Origin: Prostheceraeus crozeri | Taxonomy: Eukaryota; Platyhelminthes; Polycladida; Euryleptidae | DNA: 64,000 bases | Assembly: GCA_907163375.1 (NCBI GenBank) | Contig: CAJQUW010015608.1 | Span: 99,603 to 163,602, forward strand | Reading direction: 5' to 3' | Part shown: positions 10,854 to 51,552 of the stretch, piece after piece | Position numbering within the stretch: the stretch's first letter is position 1 | Layout of the letters: every line of letters starts with the position of its first letter | Made by a program: the position numbers and the translations under genes | The notes under the pieces: model-generated | The model's database searches: none | What the model saw: the letters and a program-made list of their open reading frames with translations, nothing else | What the model was told of the DNA's origin: nothing

Positions 10854-10866
10854 GATTTATGAGAAA

Positions 10867-14581: not shown

Positions 14582-15527
14582 AATAACGAGATCCCATTCA
14601 CAAAAGGCAAAGTGTCAGCCTTGCTAGAACTAGGGTTTTCTTTGCGAGCTACAAGCAAGCGACTAAATGTCCCTTACACAAAATAATGTGCATCGATGGC
14701 ATAATGATGATTTTCGACTCTGTCGTAAAGAGGGCTCTGGCCGTCCACGCAAAACATCCAAACGTAGAGACCGCCTAATTTTGAGATTTGTTAAAGTTGA
14801 TCCAAGTCTCTCGTTAACTGAGATGGCTGCACTAGACTCGTCTATTTCTAAGTCCACTATTCGTAGAAGACTTATTGAGTCGAATTTCAAGAGCTGTAAG
14901 AGGCCCTCTCAGATCGAATTATCAGATCAGCATACAAAAAGACGTCTCAGATGGGCAATGAGTCATTGTCACTGGCGAAGTCAATGGGATCGGGTTGTCT
15001 GGTCTGATGAGGCATCAGTCCGTCTGAAGGATAGTGATGGTCGATTGAGATTATGGATAAAATCTGATCAGGAAATTCCGAGACATTTACATCGTCCCCG
15101 GGTACAAGGTGGTGCGACTCTACTGATTTGGGCTGGCATTTGGACCAATGGCCGCTCTGAACTTCACATACAGTAAGGAACCATGAATTCTGAACGCTAT
15201 GTGAATGTTTTACGAATGAACATTGGCCAAATGACAGATCAACTTGGTGATCCATCGACTTGGTTATTTATGGATGATAATGCTACGTGTCACAAGAGTA
15301 GTAGAGTCAACTTATGCAAGTCTCAATTAGGGCTTAGGACATTATCTTGGCCAGCTCGTTCTCCTGATCTGAATCCCATAGAAAATGTATGGAGTATTCT
15401 AAAACGTAACGTTTGTCGTTCACTGCTACCTACAGATGGGGTATCACAACTGTTAAAAAGAGAGTGGAGAAAGTTAGATCAGTCAAAAATCAACGATATC
15501 ATCGAATCAATGCCTAGACGAATCTAA
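14582..15527 (+). pseudogene. Tc1/mariner transposase, broken by a frameshift and a stop
   Basis: The N-terminal helix-turn-helix region is read at about 14582-14684 (NEIPFTKGKVSALLELGFSL), after which the frame ends. The rest continues in another frame from about 14667 with GSGRPRKT, WSDEASV (first Asp of the DDE triad) and GATLLIWAGI. A stop codon at 15174-15176 interrupts that frame. It resumes in frame with FMDDNATCH (second Asp) and SPDLNPIENVW (third position, Glu), ending at 15527. Tc1 transposases are normally about 340 aa, which fits the combined length. It cannot make an active protein as it stands. Confidence 0.85.
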
Positions 15528-22942: not shown

Positions 22943-23805
22943 AGTAGTAAGTAAAACTCCACTTCTGGACCGCGAAAGATGGCCGCCGTCGCTGACGTCC
23001 CCCCCTCTGGAACGGCAGAGTGTCGTGGTCGGCCGCCGTGGTGCTTTGAGTCTGACGTCCCCCCCTCTGGAACGGCAGAGTGTCGTGGTGTACCGGCCAA
23101 GTGAGTCCGCAAGGTTCGCTGACGTCCCCCCCTCTGGCCGGCCGTCGTATAGCGCGCGGTGATGTGCTGTCGAGGTTGGCGTGGTGTGCCGGCCAGGTTG
23201 GGAGGGTGGACTGTTGTAGCTCACCTGAAAAAATCGTAAGTGTCAGAGTGGCTTTGTATGGGTAAAATTTTGAAAATTTTCCAAAGTGTGTCATTTCGAC
23301 CTGGGACCTTCACCAAAACATTTTTCATCAAATTTCACGGACCTCCCCCCCCTCCCCCCACCAGCAACCTTCTAACTTTGGTTTTAGTGGACGGATGTTG
23401 TCTTACAGCTACTCGTTTGAAAGAGGAGAAAAAACTGCTCGACGCCATTTTTGCCGCGAGTCAATCGGACCAGCCGTTCAAAAGTTACAGCTGTTACAAG
23501 ATTTTAGGTCGGAGCTCACCTGAAAAAATCCTAAGTGTCAGAGTGACTTTGTATGGGTAAAATTTTGAAAATTTTCCAAAGTGTGGAATTTCGACCTGGG
23601 ACCTTCACCAAAACATTTTTCATCAAATTTCACTGACCTTCCCCCCCCCTCGGGAGAGCTCGCTTCGATCTTGGCTTCTAGTGGACGGATTTTGTCGTGC
23701 AATAGCTCGTTTGAAAGCTAAGAGTGAGACAAATTCAGTGAAAGAAACGGCTTGTTCATATCTGTCTTCGTTTAGATGTGAGACGCCATTTAAGATTTTG
23801 GGAGA
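22943..23805 (+). repeat. left terminal inverted repeat of element 1
   Basis: The outer part (22943-23230) has three repeats of gctgacgtccccccctctgg or a close variant. It is followed by two copies of a ~297-bp unit (accttcaccaaaacattttt as marker, near 23310 and 23605). It matches the right end in inverted orientation down to about 45190. Confidence 0.85.
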
Positions 23806-26391: not shown

Positions 26392-26400
26392 TATGCAAAT
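26392..26400 (+). promoter_or_regulatory. late-type motif TATGCAAAT before the basic protein gene
   Basis: Octamer-like motif 38 bp before ATG 26439. A variant, TTAGCAAAG, follows at 26417-26425. Confidence 0.45.
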
Positions 26401-26438: not shown

Positions 26439-26804
26439 ATGGCGAAACGTAAAATGGCGAAACGTAAAAGTCAAAAGTCTTCAAAGTTTTCTTCAGCCAT
26501 TCAAGCTCTCCGACGAATGAAAGCAAATCAGCGATACAATGCTATACGACATGCTAACGATAAATTCAGTCGTGAAATTATTTCTCATGTCAGAAAGTTG
26601 AGGACGAAGAAATTAGCGCCAAAACAACGAAAGTTACTTAAGCGATATGCTACAAAATTGCGTTTCATCACCAATCCTAAAGTCACCCTTCAAAGAAAGA
26701 GGAAAACTCTAACACAAAAGGACGGTTTCCTTTCAGCAATACTTCCAATGATAGCTCCTGCCGTGGGCAACCTATTGGGTAATATCTTTGGCTCTAAGCG
26801 TTAA
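26439..26804 (+). CDS. small basic Polinton protein with QKDGFL motif, 121 aa
   Basis: The N-terminal two-thirds are very rich in Lys/Arg. The segment VTLQRKRKTLTQKDGFLSAI leads into a hydrophobic tail (ILPMIAPAVGNLLGNIFG). A remnant of the same gene in element 2 (58344-58530, minus) keeps the pattern TKRKLY, QRGGFLPLLAPI. I recall this basic region followed by Q-K/R-G/D-G-F-L as common in Polinton-type elements, always near the ATPase gene. A nucleic-acid-binding or membrane-active virion role is plausible but not shown. Confidence 0.7.
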   Translation: MAKRKMAKRKSQKSSKFSSAIQALRRMKANQRYNAIRHANDKFSREIISHVRKLRTKKLAPKQRKLLKRYATKLRFITNPKVTLQRKRKTLTQKDGFLSAILPMIAPAVGNLLGNIFGSKR

Positions 26805-26805
26805 T

Positions 26806-26814
26806 TATGCAAAT
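26806..26814 (+). promoter_or_regulatory. late-type motif TATGCAAAT before the ATPase gene
   Basis: Located 21 bp before ATG 26836, directly after the stop of the preceding gene. Confidence 0.45.
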
Positions 26815-26835: not shown

Positions 26836-27453
26836 ATGGATTTCAGACTTCAATGTGATATATTTCTGACTGTATCAGGTCCATCTCATGCAGGTAAAAC
26901 TGTTTTCACGCTGAATTTATTGGATAAAAGAAGGGAGTTGTTTAAGGAACCTATCAATCGAGTGATTTGGTGTTATGGTATTTATCAACCGTCGCTGTTT
27001 CATGAATTGCGAAGTCGCAACTTTATTCGACATGAAGGAATTATTGCAGTGGATAAACTTCAGTCTAATGATGTTGTTGTATTGGATGATTTATTAAAAG
27101 AAAGTAAGAATTCAAAAGATGTTACAGATATGTTCACTCGTGCAGCACATCATAAAAGGTGTTTTATCATCTATATCACACAAAATTTGTTTCCTGATGG
27201 AAAAGAAGCTCGTACACGAAACCTGAATACACACTATTATGCCATTTTCAAGAATCCGCGAGATAAAAGTCAATTTGAAATTTTAGCGCGACAAGTTGCA
27301 CCCAGAGGATCAAAAGCCTTAATTGAAATTTTTCAAGCAGCTACTGAAAAACCATACGGTTACTTATTCATTGACTTTACGCAAGAGTGTCCGGAAGAAT
27401 TTAGATTTCGAAGTGATATTTTGAAAACTCCCATGATTATCTACAAACTATGA
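26836..27453 (+). CDS. FtsK/HerA-type genome-packaging ATPase, 205 aa
   Basis: ATG 26836 is chosen because the upstream in-frame start is only TTG and overlaps the previous gene; the element 2 homologue starts at the same MDFRLRC. Walker A is GPSHAGKT at residues 15-22, Walker B VVVLDD at 80-85, and the sensor-like ITQN at 114-117. The enzyme would pump DNA into the capsid. Its length is typical of Polinton ATPases. It overlaps the next gene by ATGA. The frame is intact. Confidence 0.9.
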   Translation: MDFRLQCDIFLTVSGPSHAGKTVFTLNLLDKRRELFKEPINRVIWCYGIYQPSLFHELRSRNFIRHEGIIAVDKLQSNDVVVLDDLLKESKNSKDVTDMFTRAAHHKRCFIIYITQNLFPDGKEARTRNLNTHYYAIFKNPRDKSQFEILARQVAPRGSKALIEIFQAATEKPYGYLFIDFTQECPEEFRFRSDILKTPMIIYKL

Positions 27454-28143: not shown

Positions 28144-28359
28144 ATGAAGCAGATGTGTTGCTTGCCATGTAATGAGCCGCCAGAGGTGAATGTCGTTGTC
28201 ACTTGCACTTGCTGCGCCAGCTCTCACAATGAAACCCCTAAGCAATGTGAACACGATCGCAAAACCGCTAAAGCTAAATGCTGCAGTTGTTGTAAATGTA
28301 GAAAGGCAAGAAAACAAAAAGATGAGAAGGAGAAAAAAGAGTCAGTCGTCATCGACTGA
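28144..28359 (+). CDS. Cys-rich microprotein, 71 aa
   Basis: Starts 2 bp after the previous stop with MKQMCCLPC; the element 2 counterpart (56837-57031, minus) starts MKKLCCIPC at the same place between the same neighbours. It contains CTCC, CCSCCKC and a charged C-terminus (KDEKEKKESVV). Conservation of start and position argues it is a real gene. The 3' end overlaps the integrase start in another frame. Metal binding or palmitoylation of the cysteines is possible; function unknown. Confidence 0.6.
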   Translation: MKQMCCLPCNEPPEVNVVVTCTCCASSHNETPKQCEHDRKTAKAKCCSCCKCRKARKQKDEKEKKESVVID

Positions 28360-29409
28360 ACGTTTGAAATCAATCTATTATGATGTAAAACATCCGGCAG
28401 GATTTGCATCTATCAAGAAATTATCAAAAGCGAGTGGTCTTCTACAATCACAAGTGAAACGATGGTTAAAGGGTCAGGCTACATATACACTCCACAAACA
28501 AGCGAAAAAGAAGTACCGCACCCGCCGTTATATTGTTCATGACATCGATGAACAGTGGCAAGCAGATTTGTGTGATGTTGCCTCCATTTCAAAACATAAC
28601 TCGGGCAATAATTTTATTTTAACCGTCATTGATATTTTCTCGCGTTATGCGTGGGCTCAACCTTTAAAAACTAAAGAAGGGAAAGGAGTAGCAAAAGCAT
28701 TCCAAACAATTTTTCGAGAAGGTCGCATTCCAAAAAGAATTCAGAGCGATCAAGGAAAAGAGTTTGAAAATCAGCATGTGAGAAGATTATTTGAGAGGCA
28801 TAACATTGAGTTGTTTAGTGTAAAGAGTGCTTATAAAGCTGCACTCGTTGAACGTTTTAATCGCACATTAAAAAATCGCTTGTGGCGACATTTTACTGCC
28901 AACTTGACGCAAAATTGGACAAAGGTTCTACAAGATACACTCCATGCCTACAATCACTCTATCCATCGTTCTATTGGACTCAGACCAGTAGATGTAAATG
29001 CTGACAATGTAGATAAAGTGCGCGAATCATTCCAACGTAAACGCACTCATGTGAAAAGTGATGTGAAAATTGGTGATAAAGTTCGTATCTCAAAAGTGAA
29101 AATGTTTTTGCTAAAGGGTACCTTCCGAATTGGACAGAGGAGGTATTTACAGTATCAAGGATTGATCAAAAAGACTCTCCGACCACCTACAAGTTGAAAG
29201 ATTACGATAATGAAGAAATTGAGGGTAGCTTTTATCGCGATGAGATTGAGGTAGTCACTGAAAGTGAAACATATTTGGTAGAGAAAATCATTCGATGTAA
29301 AATACGGCAAGGTGAAGAATGGTGTCTTGTTAAATGGACTGGTTATCCTTCAAGTATGAACTCTTGGATGCGTCGTGCCGACATCTTTCATCTAAGTGAT
29401 CGACAGTGA
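28322..29409 (+). pseudogene. Polinton integrase (rve) with C-terminal chromodomain, one frameshift
   Basis: The most plausible start is ATG 28322, just before the block shared with element 2 (LKSIYY.. KHPAGFASIKKLSKASG). The rve core has the DDE-type triad: QADLCDV, IQSDQGKEF and VERFNRTLK. In the C-terminal part the frame is lost at about 29097-29103, where a run of A after GTG appears one base short. The next frame then carries the rest, ending in a chromodomain (YLVEKIIRCKI, EWCLVKWTGYPSSMNSW) with stop at 29409. Integrase inserts the element DNA; the chromodomain may guide it to marked chromatin. It matches the family I know as transposon-derived F54H12.3. Confidence 0.88.
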
Positions 29410-29411: not shown

Positions 29412-29420
29412 CATGCAAAG
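29412..29420 (+). promoter_or_regulatory. late-type motif CATGCAAAG before the core-like protein and capsid genes
   Basis: Located 30 bp before ATG 29451, directly after the integrase stop. Confidence 0.4.
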
Positions 29421-29450: not shown

Positions 29451-29906
29451 ATGAATCCAACTGCCTCATTTTATTCACGACCCTCCTATGTAAGTGGTGG
29501 AGGACAAATTTACATCGGCGCTCGCCGCCAACGTGGAGGTAGCATACTTGGTGCACTGAAATCTGTTGTAGCACCATTCATATCCAATGTCGGTAGATCT
29601 TTAAAGCGAAATGTTTTAAGTAATGCCGTTGGCTTTGCTGGTGATGTTGCTAGTGATCTTTCCAGAGGTAGAAGTTTTAAGAGCAGTCTGTTGAATCGTG
29701 GGAAGGAACGCGGTTTAAAAACATTGAAGCAGACCTTTGCTGGTGTTACTCAAGGAAAGAAATCACCTAAACGAATGAAAAAAGGAAGGAGGAAACATCG
29801 CGGAGCTGGTAAGGTGCGATCTTCAGTCAAAAGGCATTCACGCAAACATCGCAGAGGCTATAATCATTCATCAGGCGCTAAACGACGACGCTGCCATAAC
29901 TTCTAA
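29451..29906 (+). CDS. pVI/pX-like virion protein candidate, 151 aa
   Basis: Begins MNPTASFYSRPSYVSGG, with a GGSILGALKSVVAPFISNVG segment that can form an amphipathic helix and a very basic C-terminal half ending RRRCHNF. The element 2 homologue (55331-55714, minus) keeps the start (TAAFYSAPS) and the GGSLLGAVKG block. Placement directly before the capsid gene and the glycine/amphipathic-then-basic layout resemble adenovirus-type core or membrane-lytic proteins (pX, pVI). That equivalence is inference from layout. Confidence 0.65.
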   Translation: MNPTASFYSRPSYVSGGGQIYIGARRQRGGSILGALKSVVAPFISNVGRSLKRNVLSNAVGFAGDVASDLSRGRSFKSSLLNRGKERGLKTLKQTFAGVTQGKKSPKRMKKGRRKHRGAGKVRSSVKRHSRKHRRGYNHSSGAKRRRCHNF

Positions 29907-29908: not shown

Positions 29909-31187
29909 ATGGAGTGTAAAGCTTCCGGTTTTTGTTTGTTTGATCAACAAGCCATACAGACAGATATTCTTAGTTCAAGTATTGTAGATTATCATCCTCG
30001 AACAGCTGAGAATGCTGGCCCCATTGAATTTGTTATTCCTGGTGGTAGTGATGACTACATAGATTTGAGTTATGCGATGCTTGATTTAAGGTTTAGAATT
30101 CAGCAAGCAGATGGAACTGCTATTGACGATACACATAAAGTTGGACTGAACAATTTACCATTGACTACATTACTTCGTGATGTTTCTCTAACGATTGGAG
30201 AGCAGCAGGTGGAAGGTGGTCAAAGCGATTGTCCCTATAAATCATATTTCAACCATGTATCACAGTTTCATCCAGCAGCACAAAAAAGTCATATGGAAGC
30301 CATGGGATGGTACAGAGATGAAGCAGGAAAATTTGATGTTGAAACAAACAGTGGCTTTGTAAAGCGATCTGCTATGATTAAAGATAGTAGAGTATGTCAA
30401 CTATATGGTCCGCTGAATTTAGACTTCTTTAGACAGTCAAAGTTTTTAGTCTGTAATACCAGCATGCGACTCAAGCTGACATTGAATAAGCCTGAATTTG
30501 CGCTGAATGCATTTGCTAAAGTTGACAATTTTAGAATTCATGTGGAAGATATTGCACTTTACATTCGTCGAGTGGTACTGAATCCAAGTGTCATTAGAGG
30601 ACATGCTGAAGGTCTTAACCGCCAAAATGCCATTTACCCCGTTCAGCATACAAAGCTTCTCACCTTTACAATTCCTAAAAATCAAAAGAGTTTCATGAAA
30701 GATGGCCTCTTTCCATCGGAAGCACCGAAGCTCCTCATGGTGGCAATGGTTGAAAATGATGCATTTAATGATAATATAAAGAAGAATCCTTTCAATTTTA
30801 AACACAATCAGTTAAGTGAAATTGCTTTACGTGTAAATGGTGTGAGTCATCCTGGTCCACCCTACAAACCAGATTTTTGCTGCGGGTCAATTTATGCGCA
30901 GTTATGTTGATTTTATGGATGTCTTTGGCTTTTACAATACGGATGACACCAACGGACTCACTATGAAAGAGTTTAAGAGTGGATATACTATTTATGCATT
31001 TGATTTGACTGCTGACAGCGATATTAGTGCCCCCTATCGTCAAGCGAACGTGCCTCATAATATTCGTTTGGATTTGACGTTCAAAAGAACACTACCTGAG
31101 ACGATCAATGTATTAATTTATGCAGTCTTCGATTCAAATATTGAAATTACAAAGTATCGTGACGTGATTCTTCAGTATAATCGTTAA
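29909..31187 (+). pseudogene. major capsid protein (double jelly-roll type), one frameshift
   Basis: ATG 29909. The N-terminal region has the family blocks AGPIEFVIPGGSDDYIDLSY, LRFRIQQADGTAIDD, GLNNLPLTTLLRDVSLTIG and CPYKSYF, which I know from proteins catalogued as transposon-derived F54H12.2. The frame is lost in a run of five T at 30874-30878. The continuing frame (DVFGFYNTDDTNG, RLDLTFKRTLPE, VLIYAVFDSN) ends at 31187, giving a total near 425 codons. Either the T run has gained a base or the consensus is wrong there. It would form the capsid shell. The stop overlaps the protease ATG by one base. Confidence 0.88.
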
Positions 31188-31648
31188 TGAGTTGGTTGAC
31201 TGCTGACGATATTAAGACTAAAGTGCAGCGTAATGCAGACGAAGCGACGTTGAAAGCTTTCGATAATGTCTATTCACTCGATACCTTACCACCTGCAGTA
31301 AATCACTATCCCATGTTTATTGTGCTAAACACTCATTCGCAGAATTTAGGCGGTGAGCATTGGAAAGCGATCTTTATTGGAGAAGACCGACGTGGTGAAC
31401 TATTTGACTCTCTTGCTCAACCTCCAAATATACCAACACAGCAGTGGTTGAGAAAACATACGCGTCAATATCAGCGAAATGAACGCATGCTGCAACATCC
31501 ACTTTCATCAACGTGTGGTGCTTTTGTACTGTACTTCATCTTAAAACGTTTACATGTATCTCGATTAGTATCTGTTATTCAAAACTTTTCATGTAATCCA
31601 TCCTCTAATGAAAAAATGATTTGTAAGTTCTATCATGATTTGAAATAA
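31187..31648 (+). CDS. adenain-like cysteine protease (virion maturation), 153 aa
   Basis: The catalytic set is clear: His58 in GEHWKAIF, Asp74 in GELFDSLAQ, Gln103 and Cys110 in QHPLSSTCGAF. The length is slightly short of adenovirus protease but normal for Polintons. It starts one base inside the capsid stop codon. It would cleave precursor capsid or core proteins. The homologue in element 2 (54415-54876) keeps all four residues. An AATAAA follows at the stop. Confidence 0.9.
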   Translation: MSWLTADDIKTKVQRNADEATLKAFDNVYSLDTLPPAVNHYPMFIVLNTHSQNLGGEHWKAIFIGEDRRGELFDSLAQPPNIPTQQWLRKHTRQYQRNERMLQHPLSSTCGAFVLYFILKRLHVSRLVSVIQNFSCNPSSNEKMICKFYHDLK

Positions 31649-31674: not shown

Positions 31675-32220
31675 TTATTTTACAATCCGCTGGGTGCGTA
31701 CATACTCGATGAGATAGTCTAGGATCACATTTGCTTGTACATGAGATTTTAGTCCAGTAATGATCACTTTACTATTATGAAAGATTGCCACATGCACAGG
31801 TAACCAACAACTAATGAGAGCTGCAAGAAAAAGTTCGGGTTCATAACACAAATTGTAACTGCTGGTACGAATCTTCAAAAATGATACACTGTCACTCAAT
31901 TGAGTAGAGATCACCATATTTTCCACAGTCAGATTCGACATCACACGCCTCTCCCTCTTCCATATCCGACGTAGTAGTCTTTGTAGCTCTAAGCGCATTG
32001 ACTGCGCCGATGAATGAGAAAAGGCGCCGAGAATCTGTACAGTCCCATTTGGGAAGAGTTGAAGATTCCGTGAATTGTTCATCTTCACCACTAACATTTG
32101 AGGTCGGCCCGGGTAATACTTGCTGTTGGGAAGGTGTTGGTGTAATGTTGTGAGATCGATTTTGGTGTAGAATCTGAAGCGACGGAGAATGTTGACGATG
32201 GTGTAGCGATGGCGCTTCAT
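31675..32220 (-). CDS. TATA-binding-protein-like protein, 181 aa, two TBP repeats
   Basis: The whole protein aligns by eye with the ~180-aa TBP core. Repeat 1 has KIDLTTLHQHLPNSKYYPGR and LFPNGTVQILG (residues 55-65). Repeat 2 has ENMV (100-103), YEPELF (126-131, identical to the TBP consensus) and IFHNSKVIITG (146-156). Of the four DNA-intercalating phenylalanines of TBP, three are kept (F56, F131, F147); the first is replaced near P40. The gene is convergent with the protease gene and overlaps the next gene by 4 bp. It would bind promoter DNA as an element-encoded general factor. TBP homologues are known in giant viruses; I do not recall one in Polintons. The frame is intact. Confidence 0.8.
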   Translation of the reverse strand: MKRHRYTIVNILRRFRFYTKIDLTTLHQHLPNSKYYPGRPQMLVVKMNNSRNLQLFPNGTVQILGAFSHSSAQSMRLELQRLLRRIWKRERRVMSNLTVENMVISTQLSDSVSFLKIRTSSYNLCYEPELFLAALISCWLPVHVAIFHNSKVIITGLKSHVQANVILDYLIEYVRTQRIVK

Positions 32221-32531
32221 GATGAAAGAATTGAGTAAATTGAGCGATGTACCTTCCTTTTATACTTCTCCCAACTACCTTGATGAAATGTGAAGTTAGT
32301 ATGAAGTTGGGAATGATAGAGTTGAATTCGCCGTTTGTTGATGCGATTTCCAATACGTGAATGTCTTTTCATATAGAAGTATTTCAAATCCTTCATGATA
32401 TGATGTAGAGATTGAAAATGACGATAAGATAAAGCAAACTCCCTTCTCACATTTCCAGTTGAATCTTTGAAATAGACGTTTCGATCATGATCCGTTTCAA
32501 TACGTTGTAGGGAATCTAATTTCCAACTCAT
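32217..32531 (-). CDS. small PC4-like paralogue A, 104 aa
   Basis: The pattern is a short beta-rich N-terminus (LDSLQRIETDHDRNVYFKD), then REFALSYRHFQSLHHIMKDL, and a C-terminal WEKYKRKVHRSI. The N-terminal two thirds resemble the PC4/Sub1 single-stranded-DNA-binding domain (strands, then a basic-LS..Q-like turn and a helix). It overlaps the TBP-like gene by 4 bp, so both are probably on one transcript. Paralogue B lies just upstream and a third relative is in element 2 (53946-54296). Family membership between these three is clear; the PC4 link is tentative. Confidence 0.5.
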   Translation of the reverse strand: MSWKLDSLQRIETDHDRNVYFKDSTGNVRREFALSYRHFQSLHHIMKDLKYFYMKRHSRIGNRINKRRIQLYHSQLHTNFTFHQGSWEKYKRKVHRSIYSILSS

Positions 32532-32553: not shown

Positions 32554-32910
32554 TTAAGATTTGCATAGTAGGGCGATGAACTCACGACGAATAAATGTCA
32601 TGATGGAGCGATGTATGTATCTTCTATACTTCTCCCAATTGTATTTGCGAAATGAGAAACAGTTTGCGGAATGAGTATGGCAGATTTGAATTTCATTGTT
32701 GCGACGTTGAAGCCAAACTTGATCACCCAAGGAGATGAATCTTAATGTTTCAAAATATTCCAAATCCCTCATGATATCATTGAGGTTGACAAATTGTCGC
32801 CATGTTAATGTAATACCTCTTGATGAATGACCATGAGAATTTTTGAAATGTACGTTTCCATCACGATCAACTCTGATATATTGTAGAGAGTCCAAAATCT
32901 AAGTCTTCAT
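32554..32910 (-). pseudogene. small PC4-like paralogue B, nonsense codon at position 4
   Basis: Starts at ATG 32910 but codon 4 is TAG (32899-32901); the frame then stays open to 32554. Shared blocks with paralogue A are ILDSLQYIRVDRDGNVHFKN, ITLTWRQFVNLNDIMRDLEY and WEKYRRYIHRSI. Paralogue A has Trp close to this position, so a TGG to TAG change would explain the stop. A later non-ATG start is the alternative. Confidence 0.5.
32559..32567 (-). promoter_or_regulatory. late-type motif TATGCAAAT before the PC4-like A / TBP-like pair
   Basis: Minus-strand TATGCAAAT 27 bp before ATG 32531; it lies inside the end of the upstream paralogue. Confidence 0.45.
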
Positions 32911-32915: not shown

Positions 32916-32924
32916 TATGCAAAG
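32916..32924 (+). promoter_or_regulatory. late-type motif TATGCAAAG before the first WEV-type gene
   Basis: Located 21 bp before ATG 32946, in the short gap between divergent genes. Confidence 0.45.
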
Positions 32925-32945: not shown

Positions 32946-34343
32946 ATGTCGTTTTATCATATTTTGCTTAGCAATGCGGCCGCAAATAGATTTGCTAGTA
33001 ATCGAGCCGCACTCTTTTCTACTCCCATTGATCATATACAACAGCTAAATGGAAATTGGGAAGTGGGTGTCACTCAACTTGTTTATAGCAACTGTGTCTA
33101 TACTTTTGATCATGAGGTGATGACTATTAATATGAGACGCACAGCTGCTTACCAATGTGAAAAGGGCTGTCGAGTATACATTCCGCAGTGGCCAAAGAAA
33201 GATCTCTTATCATGTAAAAAGTTTATATATGATTTCTTGAATAAAGCGTGTAAACATATTGCCAAATTTACTCCGCACAATGATGATCATAATTATGTAC
33301 ATCATGTAGTTGAGAAAGATTGGATTGTTGGTTTAAGTCCAAGTTTAAGAAATGATTTAGGTTACCTCGCTAGCGCCTTAACAAGCTATGATAATTTTAA
33401 TGTTAATTACCACATAAGTGGTCATAAACAGTTAATATATCGAGAGGAAGCTTATTATGTAGATCTTATTCCAAGAAATGAGAAGACGTTGGTGAAGAAG
33501 ATTGTGATTAAGGTAAGAAAGACAAACATGACTCCTGAAACATTATTGAAGAAATTTAATTATCTCCTTCGAGTTGATGGTAAACAAGTGGCAACATTGA
33601 CTTATATCAAATCATCTAATCATATTGCAATAAGTAAATTAAATTATGATGATCTAGTATTAGTTTGTTCAAAAGATTTTCATCAGTTCTTACGACATCA
33701 TTCTGCAGCAGTTCATGGAAAATTTGATATGCAGCATTTACCATGTGAAAGGTCAAATCAATTTGATACAGAATGGACCGTATCTTTATACAGAAAGTGT
33801 GTAGAGCCTTTCGGTGGTATCTTACATGAAACAAGAGTGTTGATGCCTCGCATTATTACTTCGATTAAATTGGTTGTAGATTATATAAATGAAGTGATTA
33901 ATGAGCAACATATTTTATTTTCTGAAAAAGAAGGTGTTTTGTCTCTCACTATAAGTGGAAAAGGTATTGAACTAATTATGGATAAAACTCTAATGGACAT
34001 TTTGGGTTTTGATCAAAATATCTTTAAAAGTGGTACTGTAACCAAAGCTAGCGCAGACATGTCGCTATCGCGTCGTGTTAACTATTTTCAGATATATTCA
34101 AATATTGGTGAAGATGTACGTGTGGGAGATAATGAAGCTCCATTGCTAGCAATGATAGCATACCAGCGAAAAAGCTGCAGTATTTTATCTGAGCATACTT
34201 TCAAGAAAGTGCATTATACAAAGCTGAAATCAAACTACATCCCACAAATTGATATTGCAATTTATAACGATGCTGGTGCGTTGATTCCTTTTCATAAAGA
34301 TGCTGTGACAAGTATCACACTCCATTTCCGAATGAAGAGTTAA
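32946..34343 (+). CDS. WEV-type conserved Polinton protein A, 465 aa (probable virion component)
   Basis: The N-terminus MSFYHILLSNAAANRF leads to LNGNWEVGVTQLVYSN, the block that names the group. The C-terminus has GIELIMDKTLMDILGFDQNI, VGDNEAPLLAMIAYQRKS, IDIAIYNDAGALIPFHK and ends ITLHFRMKS. From memory the same order (PSN start, L-x-G-x-WEV, ...LLR-VP..., I-R-D-x-x-G-x-P-V-x-F, TLHF end) occurs in unannotated proteins of many animal Polintons. A vertex, fibre or minor capsid role is likely from context only. Intact; a paralogue follows directly. Confidence 0.75.
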   Translation: MSFYHILLSNAAANRFASNRAALFSTPIDHIQQLNGNWEVGVTQLVYSNCVYTFDHEVMTINMRRTAAYQCEKGCRVYIPQWPKKDLLSCKKFIYDFLNKACKHIAKFTPHNDDHNYVHHVVEKDWIVGLSPSLRNDLGYLASALTSYDNFNVNYHISGHKQLIYREEAYYVDLIPRNEKTLVKKIVIKVRKTNMTPETLLKKFNYLLRVDGKQVATLTYIKSSNHIAISKLNYDDLVLVCSKDFHQFLRHHSAAVHGKFDMQHLPCERSNQFDTEWTVSLYRKCVEPFGGILHETRVLMPRIITSIKLVVDYINEVINEQHILFSEKEGVLSLTISGKGIELIMDKTLMDILGFDQNIFKSGTVTKASADMSLSRRVNYFQIYSNIGEDVRVGDNEAPLLAMIAYQRKSCSILSEHTFKKVHYTKLKSNYIPQIDIAIYNDAGALIPFHKDAVTSITLHFRMKS

Positions 34344-36081: not shown

Positions 36082-39000
36082 TTATGTCAATACATTTCCT
36101 GAATGTGGTAGCGTGAGTTTTATTCTTTTGGGTGGAGGTATGTTTGTGTCAGGATGTCCATGTGGAAGAGATGTGTTATGTCCTATCCAACACCTCTTAT
36201 CTTCCCATGCTGAAAGTGCTCGTTTCTTGAACGTGTACGTTTTCACAGTATGAACTTGAGATTTTAAGATTGTCATATTGACAAACGTTATAGTTTTATT
36301 TTTATAGGCCTTCTTATAGGACCGATGTTTCATTTTGTGAACAATGGATTTTGATATACCTTTAGCACGCTTAATACTATCTGCACATTCTTTTAATTTC
36401 ATGGAATACATTTTAGGACGGAGGAGAATCATTTCATCTATTTCCTTTCCTGCTGTTTCATCCTTAAAACAACCAAGTTTGGCTTTATTCTGTATGGAAT
36501 AGAGTGGATGAGTGGGATTGTAGTTAGATTTGTCGAAATATTTTTCTAATGACTTGCCTACTTCATTAAAATTTAAATCTTTTTGAGTGGTAATTCCTAA
36601 AAAGAAACTATCTGTATCACCATCCAGCAAGCGAACCTCTTTTACGAGAGGGCATGGTTTTAATATTTTGTAGAAGAGTTGATACATTTCAAGCTTGGAA
36701 TAATCTAAAACGGCTTGCCCAATATAGATGGGTTTGCACAACTCAACTTCTGATTTTATCATTTTAACACCTACAAGATCCTCATCGATGATGTCTCTAT
36801 CAATGAAAAGAGGTGATGAGGTCAATTTGTGATATTTGTGTTCATCAACGACTAGTTTGTAGTTCATACGTTTTCTAACATCCTCCATGGTCTTTCCGAA
36901 AAGACTGTTATTCTTATATTTATAAAAATCCTTTTCAAAATTATTTTGGGCGAGTGCACGTTTTTGACTGTTACTATCTACGTAGGGTTTGAGGAAGGCT
37001 TTCTGTCTAAATTTGATGATGCGGTGAACTGACTTTAGAAGCATGCCCATTTCTAAATAGAATTTTAGTATGCAGAAGTGTACGAGATAATTTTTCTTAT
37101 CATATTGGGTGAGTAAAAGTTTGCGGCATGGTTTGTACCTTGGCTGTCCACACTCTGTTAAGTTATTATGAAATTGTGACATGAATGGTGAAAACATATC
37201 TTCAGTCACTTCACCAGATTCAGGTGCGAGTGGGAAATCAGCAGTTTTATTTTTAATGCTATTTGGATAAATCAAATCCACTTCAAAATAATATCCCCAA
37301 TCACCTTCATCTGGAATCTTCAGTATGTTTGAAGGGTTGGAGTAATACTCAAGCTCATCTTCATTTAACCAACTAAACTCGGAATGAGGTAGTGGTTTAG
37401 ACAGTTAACTGCCATATAAATTATTTTGGTCATAGTACCTTAGGTGGATATGATCATCACCTACTGTTTCAGATTTTATATGATGTTTATTTACAAATGT
37501 GAGACCACCGCGTATTCCGCGCTCAAATATATTATACATCTCCGGGTCTTGTAAGAGATGAATGGTCTCACCAGTTATTTTAAAGGCTGATTTAAAGGAC
37601 ATGGCTGGTAGACTGACGAGTGGACAGGATCTAATTTGTCTTCTTCTAATGCCACTCGTCGAAATTCCTGAAAGACATCAGCCAGCAAAATGACATCTAA
37701 TACTAAGTAAGCGATCATATAATCGCCAAACGTTTTACAATCAAATTTTAACCATGCCTCTTGAGCATGTTCATAATCTTCTACAGGACAATCTTCACCA
37801 GTCAAATCGTTTTGGAATTTGTCAATGGAAGGAAGGGTTGTTTCATTTAGTTTAGACATTGAGCTAAAATACGCATAAGGAAAGACTCCTTTGCGAGTGA
37901 TTATTGCATCCGTTAAGTTTAGATAGTGTTTCTTCAAACTTTGACTATGGGGAAGAAACTTGAGATTACGAACGAGAGAAGCTAGTGACGCTGACATGAA
38001 TTGGAATGAATCTAAAAATTTTATTTCGAAGAAGACTGTCTTATTTTCTTTAGTTTTATCTACTGGTACTTTTGCTGTCATTGCCATGAATTTTTCTCTC
38101 GTTTGCGCTATTACATTAAACTGCCACGATTTCATCTGGCTCAGCCCTCCTTTTATGAGCATATGACTGTCATAGCCTTAAAGTTATGAAAAAGGACGGG
38201 TAGTACACGACGTCTCAACCTAAGTGAAAAGTTACATTTGGAGCAGAGTGCGTTTCTAAATTTACCAGTGATGTGATCATGATCACGCACTTTCTTAATT
38301 TTATCGTCATCAAACGTTTTATGACATTTAGGACAGGATGTGCAACTTTCAAATTTTTGTTTGTCTTCATCTGACATATGTAGTGACTTACGCTGCAATT
38401 GGGAATCATATGATTGTTGAAATTTAACAGCTTTATCGAGAAATTCTAGAAATTTTGAAATGCAATCTTCACCTTGACAAGTATGCATTTTGTTTTGTCT
38501 ATTCCTAAAGTGGTCATGCCATACTTCATAGCAGGATATGGCTGCTGGCTTGTGGATGATATCATCAATGTAGCATTCTATGTCTGCGTAAATGACACGC
38601 AGGGGACTTAATTCGTCACCATTATCCCTATGTGAAAATATTTTATCTTTGGGCATGCGTTCCATTTGTAATTTACCTCGCTTGCACCATTCATAGTGAG
38701 TTTCAAATTTATCTTTACTCCAAAAGGAGCGGATGCAGCGGTCGCATACAAAATGTTCACCTCTTTTAGAGTGCCCCAAGTGAGTGTACAAGCGAGAGAT
38801 TTTGGGAATACCACAGTAGTGCCATTCCTCGCTATCATCTTGTTTTACTAATAAGAGGTTGACTACACGTTCATAACAAGTTGAACGTGAATTATAGCGG
38901 GCACCCTTCAACCCCTTCTCCCACACGTGAACGACAATTTTAATCTTATTATGTTTTTCGAACGTTTCTACATCTTTGATTTTCATATTGTTACTATCAC

Positions 39001-40057
39001 AACCTTCAAAGTCTAGTTCATCCTCCCACTGTCTATAGCTATAGGTGCGATCTCGGTGCGCGTTGATATCATTATAGTGAAGGATGGATAGGACTGCATA
39101 TTTGAAACACTGTGATTTACAATCGACATTGATGACAGCTTTCTTATTATACAACGTTTTTGGTAGTTTAAATGTACCTCGAGCTGCATGACTTTCTAAT
39201 AGTGTGAAATTTTGGATATGGCTGAGTCCACACCATCAAAAATGAGAGCGCTGTCGCGTTGATTGAATTTATCTACATTTGATTTTAAACATTGAATGTG
39301 AAAATTTAGCCAAGACTCGCAGTCTACAACTTCGGTTGCGGAAGAGGAAGGAACATGAAACTGTATTCTCTCCGTCACTTGACCCGTTTGAAAATCTATC
39401 TTAATATATTTTAGTTGAAGGTAGATGAGCGCCTTCATTCTAAAATTGTCTAAATTGTTGAAGAGCGCTTCGATAATGTTAGAATTTTGAAGGAGCCACT
39501 CAGGAAAATCTACTATTTGAGTATTGGACTCCATGCAGTAGTCGCGTACTAAATTATTATGTGAAACATTAATGAGGGAGATAGTAGAGGTACCGTTGGT
39601 GTAGTGATCATTTGCATGCGTGTGATGAAGTCTGTGCGAAGATCGCTGAAAGTGACTATCAAAAGAAAGAAGGAACAAATCGCATGGAAAGGGAGATGTC
39701 ATCGTCAGAATCAACTTCACCTCCGGAGATTGACACCGCTTTGCGTTGACACACACGTTGTTTGATGTGTCGAAAGAGACTGTGCTTCTTTGTAAACATA
39801 TGTCCGCAGTCGGCACATTCCCACTCGTTGCCTTGTCGCGAGAGTCCTGAGCTGGAACTCACATCACCTGAAAGATAAATCATTCTATCATCTCTGTTCA
39901 AGTCTCAGTGTATTGTTACAACCTACTTTGACTCAACAACTCTAAATTTTCCTCGAGAAGGGATGGCGTTGTTGATGAAGTTGATGCCTGAAATTGAGGA
40001 AGATGCTATTAGCCACACGTTTGAGGGAGATGAGTGAAGAAATTTTCAACTTACCAT
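36082..40057 (-). pseudogene. protein-primed-type family B DNA polymerase, broken at several points
   Basis: Minus strand. A leader exon with ATG at 40057 is followed at once by a 67-bp intron (39988-40054), then a short exon (GCA TCA ACT..., 39916-39987) whose link to the next frame is unclear. The body then has a C2H2-like finger (CADCGHMFTKKHSLFRH, ~39.8 kb), the Polinton N-terminal domain (to 39196), exonuclease motif VIYADIECY and a Cys/His cluster (CPKCHKTF, VRDHDHITG; to 38153), a frame change near 38160, another near 37.59 kb, RYYDQNNLYG (motif A region), an in-frame TAA at 37405, KNNSLFGKTMEDVRKR (motif B) and LDGDTDSFFLG (motif C). It would replicate the element. At least four breaks make this copy inactive unless the sequence is wrong. 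Confidence 0.85.
39988..40054 (-). other. 67-bp intron directly after the ATG of the PolB transcript
   Basis: Minus strand reads ATG|gtaagttg ... ctcaatttcag|GCATCAACT. Its length and position are the same as the intron at 24065-24131 in the leftmost gene, and both second exons start GCATC. Confidence 0.65.
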
Positions 40058-44989: not shown

Positions 44990-45115
44990 AATTTCGACCT
45001 GTGACCTTTACCAAAACATTTTTCATCAAATTTCACTGACCCCCCCTCTCCCCCCCCTCGTTCAGAGAAATTTGATGAAAAATGTTTTGGTGACGGTCCT
45101 AGGTCGAAATTCCAC
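44990..45115. repeat. hairpin of two inverted TIR-unit fragments
   Basis: accaaaacatttttcatcaa at about 45010 is followed at about 45070 by its reverse complement, with C-rich sequence between. This marks the inner border of the repeated right end. Confidence 0.6.
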
Positions 45116-45189
45116 ACTTTGGAAAATTTTCAAAATTTTACCCATACAAAGCCACTCTGACACTTAGGATTTTTTCAGGTGAGCTCCGA

Positions 45190-46661
45190 CCTGAAATCTT
45201 AAATGGCGTCTCACATCTAAACGAAGACAGATATGAACAAGCCGATTCTTTCAGTGAGTTTGTCTCACTCTTAGCTTTCAAACGAGCTATGGCACGACTA
45301 AATCCATCCACTGGAAGCCAAGATCGAAGCGAGCTCTCCCGAGGGGGTGGGGTCAGTGAAATTTGATGAAAAATGTTTTGGTGAAGGTCCCAGGTCGAAA
45401 TGCGACACTTTGGAAAATTTTCAAAATTTTACCCATACAAAGCCACTCTGACACTTAGGATTTTTTTCAGGTGAGCGAGCTCCGACCTAAAATCTTGTAA
45501 CAGCTCTAACTTTTGAACGAAGACAGATATGAACAAGCCGTTTCTTTCACTGAATTTGTCTCACTCTTAGCTTTCAAACGAGCTATTGCACGACAAAATC
45601 CGTCCACTAGAAGCCAAAATCGAAGCTAGCTCTCCCGAGGGGGGGGGAGGTCAGTGAAATTTGATGAAAAATGTTTTGGTGAAGGTCCCAGGTCGAAATT
45701 CCACACTTTGGAAAATTTTCAAATTTTACCCATACAAAGCCACTCTGACACTTAGGATTTTTTCAGGTGAGCTCCGACCTAAAATCTTGTAACAGCTCTA
45801 ACTTTTGAACGAAGACAGATATGAACAAGCCGTTTCTTTCACTGAATTTGTCTCACTCTTAGCTTTCAAACGAGCTATGGCACGACAAAATCCGTCCACT
45901 AGAACCCAAAATCGAAGCTAGCTCTCCCGAGGGGGGGGGGTTGGGAGGTCAGTGAAATTTGATGAAAAATGTTTTGGTGAAGGTCCCAGGTCGAAATGCG
46001 ACACTTTGGAAAATTTTCAAAATTTTACCCATACAAAGCCACTCTGACACTTAGGATTTTTTCAGGTGAGCTCCGACCTAAAATCTTGTGACAGCTCTAA
46101 CTTTTGAACGGCTGGTCCGATTGACTCGCGGCAAAAATGGCGTCAAGCAGTTTTTTCTCCTCTTTCAAACGAGTAGCTGTAAGACAAAATCCGTCCACTA
46201 GAACCAAAGTTAGAAGATTGCTGTCGGGGGGGGGGAGGTCCGTGAAATTTGATGAAAAATGTTTTGGTGAAGGTCCCAGGTCGAAATGACACACTTTGGA
46301 AAATTTTCAAAATTTTACCCATACAAAGCCACTCTGACACTTAGGATTTTTTCAGGTGAGCTACAACAGTCCACCCTCCCAACCTGGCCGGCACACCATG
46401 CCAACCTGGCCGGCACACCACGCCAACCTCGACAGCACATCACCGCGCGCTATACGACGGCCGGCCAGAGGGGAGGGACGTCAGCGAACCTTGCGGACTC
46501 ACTTGGCCGGTACACCACGACACTCTGCCGTTCCAGAGGGGGGGGACGTCAGAATCAAAGCACCACGGCGGCCGAGCACGACACTCTGCCGTTCCAGTGG
46601 GGGGGACGTCAGCGACGGCGGCCATCTTTCGCGGTCCAGAAGTGGAGTTTTACTTACTACT
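45190..46661 (-). repeat. right terminal inverted repeat of element 1, expanded
   Basis: Inverted match to 22943-23805 but with extra internal units. The marker gatgaaaaatgttttggtga recurs at about 45074, 45365, 45663, 45961 and 46251 (spacing 290-298 bp), against two units on the left. Each unit carries a G-run of 6-10 bases next to tcagtgaaatttgatg. Confidence 0.85.
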
Positions 46662-46667: not shown

Positions 46668-48129
46668 TATGTCTTTTTGCATCATACGACCCAATTATTT
46701 AGTTCAATTAGTGATGACCAGAGACCCTAGGATTCTGTGAAGCGCAGGTAATCGCAGAAAATGCAGAAAACGATGGAAATCGCAGAAAAACACGGATTTT
46801 CTACAATTTGAATAAAAAGTACGTAGACCTCTTTAGTAATGCTGCTTTCGATTAAATGATGGCATATATATCAACTACAGATCTTTATCTCCATTATATT
46901 ATCACGTGCCCATGATCAGCATTTTGCTGAGAGTGAGAAAAATGCAGTGGAAGGCTGAGTTTGGTCCTATTTTCTTGGGTTTAGAGATGAAAATAGCAGG
47001 AAAACGTCAGAGTTTAATAAGTCAGGTGTTGGATGTTTTGGGATGAGAAAAGTCGGAATTCGTCATGAAGGAGGTCCCGGATGGGAAAACGGAGTGCAAA
47101 TTCAGACGTTTTGACCAATGTTTGGTCTAGGAACTTCTTTCCAGTTCGATCGGTGAGAAAAAGTTCTGACCCCCCCCCTCGCCAGCGATCTTCCAACTTT
47201 GGTGTAAGAGATCGTAGAAAGTCGTGCAATAGCTCGTTTGAAAGCTAAGAATGAGAAAAATTTAGTGGAAGACACAGCTTGTTCCTATCTGCCTTCGTAT
47301 AGATGTGAGACGTCATTGAAAATTTTGGACATTGGCGAAAAAACGTCAGAGTTAGAATTTTACGAAAATCGCTCTAGCGGGTGAATCCGGCCTCGGACGG
47401 GAAAACAGAGACCAGATTTGGAATCAGCGTGCCATTCTACATCTAGAGGGTGAGTTTCAAGTCAATCGGAGAGAAAAAGTTGAAAAGTTGGGTCTGCGCA
47501 TGAGATTTTTTTCCTGAAAATATTAAATTGTGGCCACTTTTGGTGATGAATAGCGGAGGATTGGAAGTGAATGATGAGCTCGGGTTTCATTTAGGGGCAA
47601 GACGGCACTTTGTTCTCTAGGATCCACTCTTTTCAGATTGCGTGGAAGGTTTTTGTTGCCAATTGTAGAGCCTGTTGAAAATCGATGTTCAAGTATAGTT
47701 TTGTGCATTTTCCAAGATTTTGGAAATTTATTGAATAAAACGACAGAGTTTTTTTCATCTCGGCTTCTGGTAATCGTAGAGGGTTGAGGGATGTCTTAAA
47801 TGAAAGGGTAGACTGAGAGCGAGAAAACTATGGGCATGTCAAAATTTGGAGTCAATCAGAAGCACTAGAAGCGGAGATAGACGGGTTTTAAAAGTTTTTG
47901 GATGATGAAATATTAGTCATCCAGCTGATTGCCACAAACTACATAAGGGTGGAACCTGATCAGTAGACTGTATTCATTTAGAGGAGAGTGATTGTCAAGG
48001 GTAGGTCCGTCTCTCTGAGCTTCCGATGAATAGTTTCGGACATTCCAATTCCGACTTAGAAAATGAGAGCGCGAGATTGGCTGAACTCAGCTAAGGCTGT
48101 CAGAGTTATGAGGTTCGCCAGGAGATGGC
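46668..48129. other. gene-free stretch with a diverged Polinton terminal-repeat fragment
   Basis: 47160-47440 resembles 23640-23900 of the left TIR of element 1 (tgcaatagctcgtttgaaag, then agatgtgagacg and gaccagatttggaatcagc) with many differences. It may be the outer part of the left end of element 2 or a relic of a third element. No gene is supported. Confidence 0.5.
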
Positions 48130-50060
48130 CTTCGTCTTCCAGGCCATAAGAAGACTCCAAAACTTTAAAGGCTTGTAACTTTGCTTCTACAAGTCCAGTT
48201 TTTGACTTAATTGAAAAAAGGTTCGGTCGCTACTTGACCTGCCCTAAGTGACAGATTAATTTTATAAAATTTCTATAAGTAGTGCTAAAAAGTTGAAAAA
48301 TTTAAAATTCACTAGTTTTGGAGGTCCTTCTGGGCGTTTTCGACCCTGCTGAAGTTTAAATGAAGGCACGTATAACGTTCCCGTTGTACGAAGCCAGTCT
48401 TCTCATGTTATAAGCGGCTTTTCACTGAAAGTGAGCCGAAAAATGACACCGAGAGCTTTTGCTGTACATATTCCAATGACAGGGTGTTCCTTCGGGACGG
48501 CGGACGATTGCCCGGTATGTGATAAGTGTGGGTGTGGGGGATGAGGCTATGGCCAATGGATTGTGTCGTATTTTAGACGACACCGCTGGGGAGGCAACTC
48601 CATGTATCATGTTCGTGGCATTTGACACAGTTCTCAAACGTAGCACTTTTTTTGTTTTTTTTTGAACGCCAATCGGTTGAGTATTAGCTATCTTGTCATG
48701 GGTGGCCCTCTAAACATCTCCATTGCAAAACGCTGTTGAAATCACGGCTTGCTATCAAGCTGATCAACAGTCTCTCTCCATACCTCTTACCAACTCTTAC
48801 CGGTTTTTCATGTCTGGCTTATCAAGTCATGGATGGTGCAAGATAAATTTTAGCATTGATAAGTAGTCATCAATGTCACAGGGACCCCTATAAAAATAGT
48901 ATGTCCCATAGTATCCAATAGCCATGTTCAAAAATTAGGCTCACGGAGATTTTCGGTCGGGTAGCCATACTTCTGTGGTTTCTTTGAGCCCGTGGGATGT
49001 TTTTCTTTTCGAGGACAGCGGTGGTGTGTTGAGAGGGTTCCGTATCGATGTAATTGAGTACTGCACGCCCACGGATATCGTGGGCATATGGTAATCCTTG
49101 TGAAACACTGCTCTGCGTCATGTTTCCAAGTGGTTGCCTTTCGTCTCAACGTTATAACTGTGACCGCCAGGCGACATTTAGCTATTTTCTCTCCACAAGG
49201 TGGGGGTACCTCATAAATTTTTTATCTCCATTGCACTTGTCTCCCGATAGTTGGCCAACCATGCGGGTTGTAGGTAGGTGGTGTGACGGCGTGGTGTGGA
49301 GAGGGTGTGAGGGGGAGGAGAATGAACCATAAGTTCTTTTAAGAACTGTCTCTATCACGGAGACGAAATGATGAAGGGATGAAACGGGAGGACATTCATG
49401 CGCCACACGCAACTCATCACAGACTTCTCTCTTCGCTAGTGAACAAGCTCTTGTGAACGTAATCAGAAAGTGTATCATGGTTTGCAAAAGCAAAGTTTAG
49501 TCAAATAGTTTTAGCGCGACACACGTCTGTGAAAGTAAAGTTTGATCATTGGCGGGGGGTTAGTTTTATGACTGTGCTGGGTTGGGGGGTGGGGTGGTCC
49601 TTGTAGCGAACTCATCACAGCACTAGAAAGTTTTATCGATGAGGTTGTATTTGTGATTGCCTTGGAGCTGGGATAAGATCCCCTCTGAGTAATGCCTGTA
49701 ACGGATTCAAGAGCTTAACACCTAAACGGTTGCTGGCCTGCTATCAGGTCTTTGTGAAATCTCGTCTAGCCTCAGTAACTCAGGGTTGGCAACGTCCATC
49801 GTTTGTCATTGTAACTTGGTAAAAATGAGACGGTTATGCAGGCATTGACGTCAAACCTTTTCGCGTCATAGGGTAACCCGTGTTTGTGTTGGGAGTTGGT
49901 AACTTTTGTTGTTGCGTTAACGAACGCACGGTAACTGCCGATGCCCATTTTGTTCTTTTTTTTTTTTTATAAATATGGTTATGTTTTTAAAACCGCTGAT
50001 GTCATGTCAAATGCATGGCCAAATAAGGAAGGTCTGAATCATGGCTTTGTGCTCGCTGGG
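48130..50060 (+). repeat. left inverted repeat of element 2
   Basis: 48130-48780 matches 60830-61430 inverted (marker aaggttcggtcgct and its complement), and about 49640-50060 matches 60340-60740 inverted (marker aaaccttttcgcgtcatagg). About 750 bp between these blocks have no partner on the right. Confidence 0.75.
49370..49490 (-). repeat. block shared with the accessory region of element 1
   Basis: Reverse complement matches 41340-41450 (gttgcgtgtggcgc, cgtctc, gatagagac). In both elements a short frame reads LRVA-x-ECPP, but no complete gene can be drawn. Confidence 0.5.
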
Positions 50061-50070
50061 TATATAAACC
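50061..50070 (+). promoter_or_regulatory. early-type promoter TATATAAACC inside the left repeat end
   Basis: 40 bp before ATG 50101. The right inverted repeat carries the degenerate counterpart (taataaaacc, minus strand near 60335). Confidence 0.6.
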
Positions 50071-50100
50071 GCCGACTCTCATTTAATTTCATTTCAGTCA

Positions 50101-50411
50101 TGGAGCAAACGACCAACACTCTAGTCAGCTCTCCTGACAAGCTCGAACAGTCTAGTATGGCAAATTCTTCTGAAGCCTTGAATATTTTCTACAAAATTTT
50201 CGAAGTTGTTGACGAGTGGGATGAAGACAAGTGTGAACAAGAGGAGGAGTCCAGCAAGAAAGTCATCATTGAAAAAGTTGTGTGGACTAATGGTGAATTC
50301 ACGCCAAAAACGACGCGTGTTAGAAAAGTGCCCGACGCACCAAAACGGCCAAGGTGTTATAAAGTATATAGTGACTTAGAGGTTATTCCGCTTGACTTTT
50401 TCTCGCTGTAA
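50101..50411 (+). CDS. DEWDE-type small early protein, 103 aa, intact
   Basis: ATG 50101 follows a TATA box at ideal distance. The N-terminal third is Ser/Thr-rich, then EVVDEWDEDKCEQEEE (acidic), then IEKVVWTNGEFTPKTTRVRK and VPDAPKRPRCYKVY. The relative in element 1 (41859-42114) keeps DEWDE, IEKIVWT, TTRIRKVPDAP and the Y-x-V-Y end. The pattern acidic plus WT-x-G-x-(W/F)TP-x-TTR is not one I recognise. It points inward from the left end; AATAAA follows the stop. Confidence 0.7.
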
Positions 50412-50791
50412 AGTATATATGATTCTATTATAAATAAACCTACATAATACATGTCTTTGTTTTGCAATGTACTTGTATTTATCTTGAAATGGAAATAATG
50501 GAGGAATTTAGATATGGGGTTAGTTAACACATTGATTATCGGTCTACTTTTCCATCAAAAGGGATCACACCATTAGAGAAGATAGGAAAAATGATTTTGT
50601 ATACGTGTGGTATAAGACTGACAAGCAGAATTCATGGCTCATTCTCAGATAAACCGAGCGTTGCTTCAATTGATTCACCTAAAATCATGTTTCATATGTT
50701 GAATGATTTCTAGTAACTGTATTAAGTGTCTAGATGATAGGATATCTTATGCTAGCAATAGCTCCCAATCGACACTATGCTTACTCGATGA

Positions 50792-51187: not shown

Positions 51188-51369
51188 AGGCGCTCGGTGG
51201 TGTATCCATTTTAATGATATCATGAGGAAATGGTCATTGCACCGCACTTATATAGATTCTCTCTCTCCTGCTTCGCGCTCCCTCATTGCAACGACAGCCA
51301 TTTATCAATCACACTGCATCATTCTCATATATAAAGAAGAATGTCTTACATTTTACTATCATAGTCACG

Positions 51370-51552
51370 TCCGACACAGAGGAAACATTCACACCTCTTG
51401 CTAGCTCAACTCCTACGAAGAAGGAAGTTGAGAGAAAGTTTCAACAAAAAGAGGAAGAGGAAGAGAGACAAATGATTGAAGGCTGCAAGCAGCTCACTCT
51501 ACAAACGGTTGAGAGTGAGCCTTTCATAAACGAGGCTGACTTTCAGGAGTGA
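51370..51552 (+). CDS. possible acidic C-terminal exon
   Basis: An open frame with coding-like content (FQQKEEEEERQMIEGCKQLT) but no in-frame ATG near its start. A TATA-like catatataaag lies at about 51330. It may be a second exon or a remnant. Confidence 0.25.
   Translation, partial: SDTEETFTPLASSTPTKKEVERKFQQKEEEEERQMIEGCKQLTLQTVESEPFINEADFQE

Follow-up and report, generated by a model that had tools for sequence, protein, structure and literature searches.

The Prostheceraeus crozeri genome contains Polinton elements that carry their own TBP. In the DNA stretch analyzed here (the window; 64,000 nt), a two-repeat TBP-like gene (31675..32220, minus strand) lies between the inverted repeats of a transposon of about 24 kb, and TBP is an element gene, carried by two Polinton families of this one genome. 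We consider it probable that the gene is a TBP paralogue of Polinton/Maverick elements that acts as the element's promoter-recognition factor. This role, which we infer from sequence comparison, is favored by the protein's fold and family, its residue pattern, its dN/dS, its synteny and a TATAAAAG box upstream of the TBP ATG; counting against it are the decaying copy in the window, the weak constraint on the partner ORF and protease, and the TAAGCAAA boxes in a second Polinton that lacks TBP. The evidence suggests that the element's altered TBP steers the host transcription machinery to element genes.

Virus-encoded TBPs were known before from large DNA viruses, and the original prediction was right that some giant viruses have TBP homologues: the accessible parts of three papers report TBPs encoded by giant viruses and mirusviruses (PMC7221094, PMC10132985, PMC11410667). 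Here a transposon has one, copied many times and present in two families of a single genome, and its TBP belongs to a set of over 200 proteins recorded in public genomic and metagenomic data. The accessible parts of the Polinton, Maverick, adintovirus and virophage literature searched, which lies mostly outside subscription papers, report no TBP-bearing Polinton (PMC10675990, PMC12220804, PMC10132985, PMC11464507, PMC12085832, PMC7786948, PMC4602308), and priority is not certain. One of these sources describes, in its accessible part, sporadic TBP genes in elements of putative mirusvirus origin in an algal genome (PMC10675990).

The gene and the elements that carry it

The ORF runs on the minus strand, which the original prediction did not specify, from an ATG at 32220 to a stop ending at 31675 and encodes 181 aa. 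As originally predicted, it is a two-repeat TBP-like gene: two segments match Pfam family PF00352 (TBP; E 2.4e-19 and 69.4 bits versus a curated cut-off of 22.9), and a profile from 116 family members gave E 1.8e-25 in a single alignment spanning positions 2–178 of 181. Lack of a significant TBP profile match or of the saddle fold had been named as grounds for giving up the assignment; the match is strong, and the predicted structure is the TBP saddle. In the PDB, phmmer matched the archaeal TBP 2z8u (E 6.5e-11), and yeast TBP is 22% identical to the window's protein. We rejected chance resemblance to TBP. The repeat motifs quoted in the original prediction are present in the product, and its count of three retained intercalating Phe out of four is correct (F56, F131 and F147), with Pro40 at the repeat-1 stirrup position. 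The intercalating and contact roles, and the human residue numbers used below, are those that we take these residues to have after alignment to yeast TBP.

The element is bounded by inverted repeats running inwards from 22943 and 46661. The outer parts of its left arm (22943..23649, plus strand; inverted repeats I1, I2, I9, I20 and I23) and right arm (45936..46661, minus strand; from inverted-repeat pairing) are followed outwards by the flanks TTAGTT and GTAGTT, which are equal in five of six bases, the Polinton target duplication being 6 bp; the arms are 95–99% identical. Within the right repeat, at 45062–46421, segments of the left one recur several times. The element encodes a retroviral-type integrase, as a Polinton/Maverick should (28190..29197, plus strand; PF00665 rve, E 2.6e-11), and a putative protein-primed DNA polymerase B (pPolB) that is broken here into several frames (36082..39816, minus strand; PF03175, E 4.3e-4, below cut-off, in one piece). 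The pPolB piece at 38156–39154 has a recombination endonuclease VII match near its end (PF02945, 6.8e-7). A packaging-type ATPase is a weak match (26836..27453, plus strand; PF04665 Pox_A32, E 0.014, below cut-off, scanned from a TTG at 26788), as is a cysteine protease of the Ulp1/adenovirus type (31187..31648, plus strand; PF02902, E 0.004, and PF00770, E 0.027, below cut-offs), whose string HPLSSTCGA is common to both Polintons of the window.

The ORF at 29909..31187 (plus strand), split over two frames, is one that we take from its position to be a major capsid protein candidate; it has no Pfam capsid match. The basic ORF upstream of it (29451..29906, plus strand) is presumably pVI-like, judging by position, and a small basic ORF (26439..26804, plus strand; PF05829 Adeno_PX only at E 0.09) is presumably pX-like. 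A 465-aa ORF without a Pfam family match (32946..34343, plus strand) is divergent to partner ORF b. We call the element a Polinton/Maverick, within the limits set by weak ATPase, protease and pPolB matches and by a capsid named from its position. The window copy is decaying, its capsid candidate and polymerase being split over frames.

Two partner ORFs lie upstream of TBP: ORF a (32217..32531, minus strand; 104 aa) and its paralogue ORF b (32554..32895, minus strand; listed from a TTG in this copy), which are 41% identical. The original prediction described the neighbor as PC4-like, a label that we rejected as evidence: ORF a has no Pfam PC4 match and no PC4 chain among its PDB profile matches, its low-confidence structural model has a pLDDT of 58, and Foldseek gave no match at E 0.001. 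A protein search with the partner ORF returned one relative. The predicted 4-bp overlap between ORF a and TBP exists in the window, but just one of the 47 other copies sampled has it; the upstream frame continues 329 bases into the TBP gene in 31 of them. In the translations inspected, this extended partner ORF (window 31892–32353), read in another frame than TBP, is 216 aa long and its end is acidic.

Across the 2.05 Gb genome, 150 scored places match the whole 181 aa at 96–100% identity, and no stop interrupts any of them. Because they are the top 150 among 11,823 first-look candidates, their number is a lower bound and their lack of stops a product of rank. In a search with the relative P0086, 150 of 10,972 candidates were scored, 136 of them without a stop; this list may overlap the first. 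We read 18 loci from this search (10 returned with it and eight chosen). Sixteen are of the window's group. In 15 of these, TBP is 78–84% identical to the window's; the other, L074, has 97% DNA identity and a TBP matching in two pieces only. In all 16, TBP lies between the protease and capsid candidate, at one end, and a partner-ORF relative, at the other; beyond the latter, ORF 32946 follows in 15.

In loci L075 and L076, TBP is 42–43% identical to the window's. A partner-ORF relative again lies upstream (E 9.7e-12 and 4.7e-15, respectively), its best match being the partner ORF of the window's second Polinton, and pPolB stretches on the opposite strand are 60–75% identical to a piece of the window's pPolB (36085–37281). 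This arrangement differs from that of the 16 group loci, and TBP therefore occurs in two Polinton families with two gene orders. Since relatives of partner ORF a are found upstream of TBP in both, the partner ORF goes with TBP. The original reading that a Polinton-type element carries the gene is thus supported by the flanking inverted repeats and by recurrence in 16 further loci plus a second family, found by the search for the gene in other Polintons that it had proposed. Its placement of TBP among virion genes holds for the window's family, which has virion-type genes around it; the second family instead has TBP near pPolB.

Residue pattern and phylogeny of the protein family

A single-sequence search found 18 relatives and a profile search 207 related proteins, 120 of them listed; a Polinton context was seen only for loci of the window's own genome, not for these 207. 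There were no related loci in IMG/VR (searched with P0001, A1, A2 and alignments of the capsid candidate piece, protease or integrase), in GTDB genomes searched with A2, or in phage records, and no TBP in PHROGs. Alignment A2 holds 116 members, five of 121 proteins having been left out, all short (P0005, P0068, P0106, P0117 and P0121).

Throughout A2, three intercalating Phe are retained (F56 in 116/116, F131 in 115/116, F147 in 116/116), as are the central Asn residues (Asn10 in 101/101 rows with a letter there, Asn101 in 115/115) and the C-terminal stirrup positions that presumably contact TFIIB (Glu127 in 114/116, Glu129 in 116/116, Leu or Ile130 in 115/116). The fourth Phe, in the repeat-1 stirrup, is Pro40 in 115 of 116 members, and we therefore regard the protein as a divergent TBP, not a canonical one. 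Arg39, Met42, Gln62 and Gly65 are invariant in all 116, a near-invariant GRP preceding Met42, and the position equivalent to human Glu191, which we take to be a TFIIA contact, is Lys or Arg34 in 95 of 116. The Polinton TBP thus resembles cellular TBP (yeast, archaeal) in its two repeats, saddle fold and both central Asn, and has the eukaryotic YEPEL-type TFIIB stirrup and three of the four intercalating Phe; it differs in the repeat-1 stirrup Pro, in Met42 and Gln62, and in the TFIIA-contact Glu, mostly Lys or Arg here. A fixed Phe-to-Pro change beside a kept TFIIB contact offers a natural experiment in DNA read-out and partner choice by TBP.

Animal TRF/TLF are TBP paralogues with altered DNA contact and a kept TFIIB contact, encoded by host chromosomal genes. 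The Polinton TBP presumably shares this pattern, carried on an element rather than a chromosomal gene.

The repeat-2 stirrup reads E-x-E-(L/I)-F in Polinton members, YEPELF in yeast and YEPEQF in 10 readable large-virus rows, nine of which keep the repeat-1 Phe (near-duplicates counted). We built a tree from 24 of the 116 members, eight viral loci out of the 11 fetched (left out were the near-duplicates L015 and L016, and L017, which was read in a wrong frame) and four cellular TBPs. A 100/100 branch, with a long stem, separates the 24 members from the eight viral and four cellular rows. By this tree, Polinton TBPs form a clade deeply separated from all TBPs compared, and they are not members of the giant-virus/mirusvirus clade. 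The phylogeny that the original prediction proposed thus separates the family from giant-virus and cellular rows, host TBP and TRF being absent from the rows. An origin within the large-virus TBPs compared was rejected on the same 100/100 branch.

Giant viruses and mirusviruses likewise are virus-type elements with their own TBP, but they are large viruses and their TBPs form a separate clade. According to the accessible part of PMC7221094, viral TBPs keep their DNA contacts and diverge at host-TFIIB contacts, and almost all TBP-bearing viruses, poxviruses excepted, have a TFIIB-like protein. The Polinton family appears to be the reverse: its TFIIB contacts are kept, no TFIIB is found in the element ORFs scanned, and half of the DNA-binding face is remodelled. 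African swine fever virus B263R is also a virus-encoded TBP-like protein (PMC5825884, accessible part), but of another virus group, and its abalone asfa-like virus homologue was a remote fold match only (13% identity).

We propose that the 5′ half of a TATA-like box would be held by repeat 2 (its two Phe, Asn, Thr and Glu-x-Glu-Leu stirrup), to which host TFIIB would also bind. The altered repeat 1 (Phe to Pro, Arg39, Met42, Gln62, and the Glu191 equivalent to Lys or Arg) would read the 3′ half differently and may loosen TFIIA or other host contacts. In this way element genes would attract host RNA polymerase II. A scan of 27 ORFs or ORF pieces of the element gave no TFIIB match, so host TFIIB would be needed. 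The same residues can also be read as those of a decoy that ties up TFIIB, or occupies host TATA boxes with no proper pre-initiation complex forming there, and so lowers host transcription. Such a shut-off would be consistent with a TFIIB stirrup kept while the presumed TFIIA contact and one intercalating Phe have changed, but the three other Phe and both central Asn would argue for productive DNA binding, and we think this reading unlikely.

Candidate promoter boxes

A TATAAAAG box (32257..32264, minus strand) lies at −44 of the TBP ATG. In 42 of 47 other copies TATAAAAGG is found at −43, and in the second family L075 and L076 have TATAAAAG upstream of the TBP ATG as well (−43, counted by eye). 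Among the starts examined, the TBP gene alone has a TATA box at promoter distance; ORF 32946 has TATAAAA only at −7. The TATAAAAG site also forms the codons for Tyr-Lys-Arg of the partner ORF, and protein constraint may therefore explain the conservation of the box.

These observations bear on a second alternative, in which the TATAAAAG promoter of its own gene is the protein's main target and element expression is held low, as would suit a long-lived integrated element. The sole TATA box at promoter distance, its retention in most copies and its presence in the second family favor such autoregulation, but the partner-protein codons may force the box to be there, and we find the idea quite unlikely. 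For a promoter-recognition factor, the same box could allow the TBP gene to be switched on first by host TBP.

A different box, ATGCAAA, precedes other genes. It is part of TATGCAAA at 26392..26399 (plus strand; at −46 of ORF 26439), 26806..26813 (plus strand; −29 of the ATPase ATG), 32560..32567 (minus strand; −35 of partner ORF a) and 32916..32923 (plus strand; −29 of ORF 32946), and stands at 29413..29419 (plus strand; −38 of ORF 29451). It thus occurs at −46 to −29 in five of 15 starts; one further start has it at −10, or at about −40 should translation begin at the next ATG (34383). The box before ORF 32946 is kept in 14 of 16 loci (absent in L068 and L073) and that before ORF 29451 in six of six readable loci; the loci include two near copies of the window's element (L009 and L074), and several of the rest are mutually close. 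When the window and four loci were aligned, the box was invariant in all five sequences, and of all invariant runs upstream of ORF 29451 its seven columns were the longest. No ATGCAAA-type box precedes the partner ORF or TBP in L075 and L076.

ATGCAAA is not enriched element-wide (eight copies versus a Markov mean of 7.4), and its position alone is unusual. The best 7-mer count was equalled in one of 2000 random sets and the best 6-mer count in 118 of 2000. In this test the random positions could also fall within genes, the ATPase start was shifted to its first ATG once the motif was known, and the entries included PolB 39699, though it has no start codon, and partner ORF b and ORF 43606, with TTG or GTG starts. 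A related count came from TAAGCAAA, present twice in the TBP-bearing element and once in its left flank. The TBP-less second Polinton has six copies (window 53327, 53919, 53931, 55299, 55758 and 58840) versus a Markov mean of 0.87 and no more than five in any of 300 simulations. Two of the six copies stand at −44 and −33 of the genes matching ORF 29451 and ORF 32946. Because the boxes also occur in a Polinton without TBP, the box is a Polinton feature.

We hypothesize that the element's TBP could read the ATGCAAA-type box. A possible, though somewhat unlikely, extension is that its DNA specificity has changed and that an early/late switch exists: host TBP would act on TATAAAAG, and the element TBP would then select the TATGCAAA boxes 29–46 bases before several start codons, read with host TFIIB and polymerase II. 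If true, one changed general transcription factor would have created a small orthogonal promoter system. Virophage promoters are shared with the giant-virus helper, which supplies the transcription factors. Virophages are likewise small DNA elements with uniform promoter boxes, but the Polinton may bring its own factor.

Constraint on the gene and its neighbors

Between the window's TBP and those of 15 loci, dS was 0.30–0.47 and dN/dS 0.22–0.35, values that are not independent, since many of the loci, all of them top matches to P0086, are close to each other; two of the 15 (L070 and L072) contain a stop. The near copy L009 gave a dN/dS of 0.36 at a dS of 0.03, and six other pairs gave 0.21, 0.22, 0.23, 0.25, 0.40 (dS 0.08) and 1.0 (dS 0.04, close copies). 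By these alignments, TBP dN/dS is well below 1 between lineages, a pattern that fits constraint during element activity and drift after insertion.

Among close copies, nonsynonymous and synonymous changes in TBP were 14:41 (47 copies; ratio 0.10), or 13:40 in 46 copies; we rejected this low ratio as evidence of selection because the copies were ranked by TBP similarity. The window's TBP differs from the majority of the 47 sampled copies in six nonsynonymous and three synonymous codons. Partner ORF a gave 40:13 in the sampled copies (ratio 0.74; 37 of 47 ungapped, two stops) and the protease 51:29 (ratio 0.49; 44 of 47 ungapped, four stops), and constraint on both appears weak.

A TBP near pPolB in the second family would suit an architectural role, with the protein bending DNA in replication, packaging or integration instead of transcription; such a role has no obvious use for a conserved TFIIB stirrup, and we regard it as very unlikely. 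Chance capture of a host TBP gene that is now a relic is hardly credible, because the decay of the window copy and its 6:3 codon changes are outweighed by the low dN/dS across lineages, the 207 related proteins, the two gene orders and the long stem apart from cellular TBPs in a tree whose rows do not include the host's own TBP. For the promoter-recognition factor that we favor, the testable question is whether a single altered factor of a mobile element re-programs the most conserved step of host transcription.

The rest of the window holds other mobile DNA. The second Polinton is degraded and lies on the minus strand at 47172–60000 (about 47–60 kb). Its gene set comprises an ATPase, an integrase, an internally shortened capsid candidate, a protease and a partner-ORF relative; no TBP was found in it, and the stretches matched to the first Polinton are 25–72% identical. 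A fragment at 14667–15176 resembles what we take to be a Tc1/mariner transposase. Finally, window 6375–13449 contains repeated reverse-transcriptase ORFs with a GIY-YIG-like end, presumably Penelope-like, two of which are 893 aa long and nearly identical.
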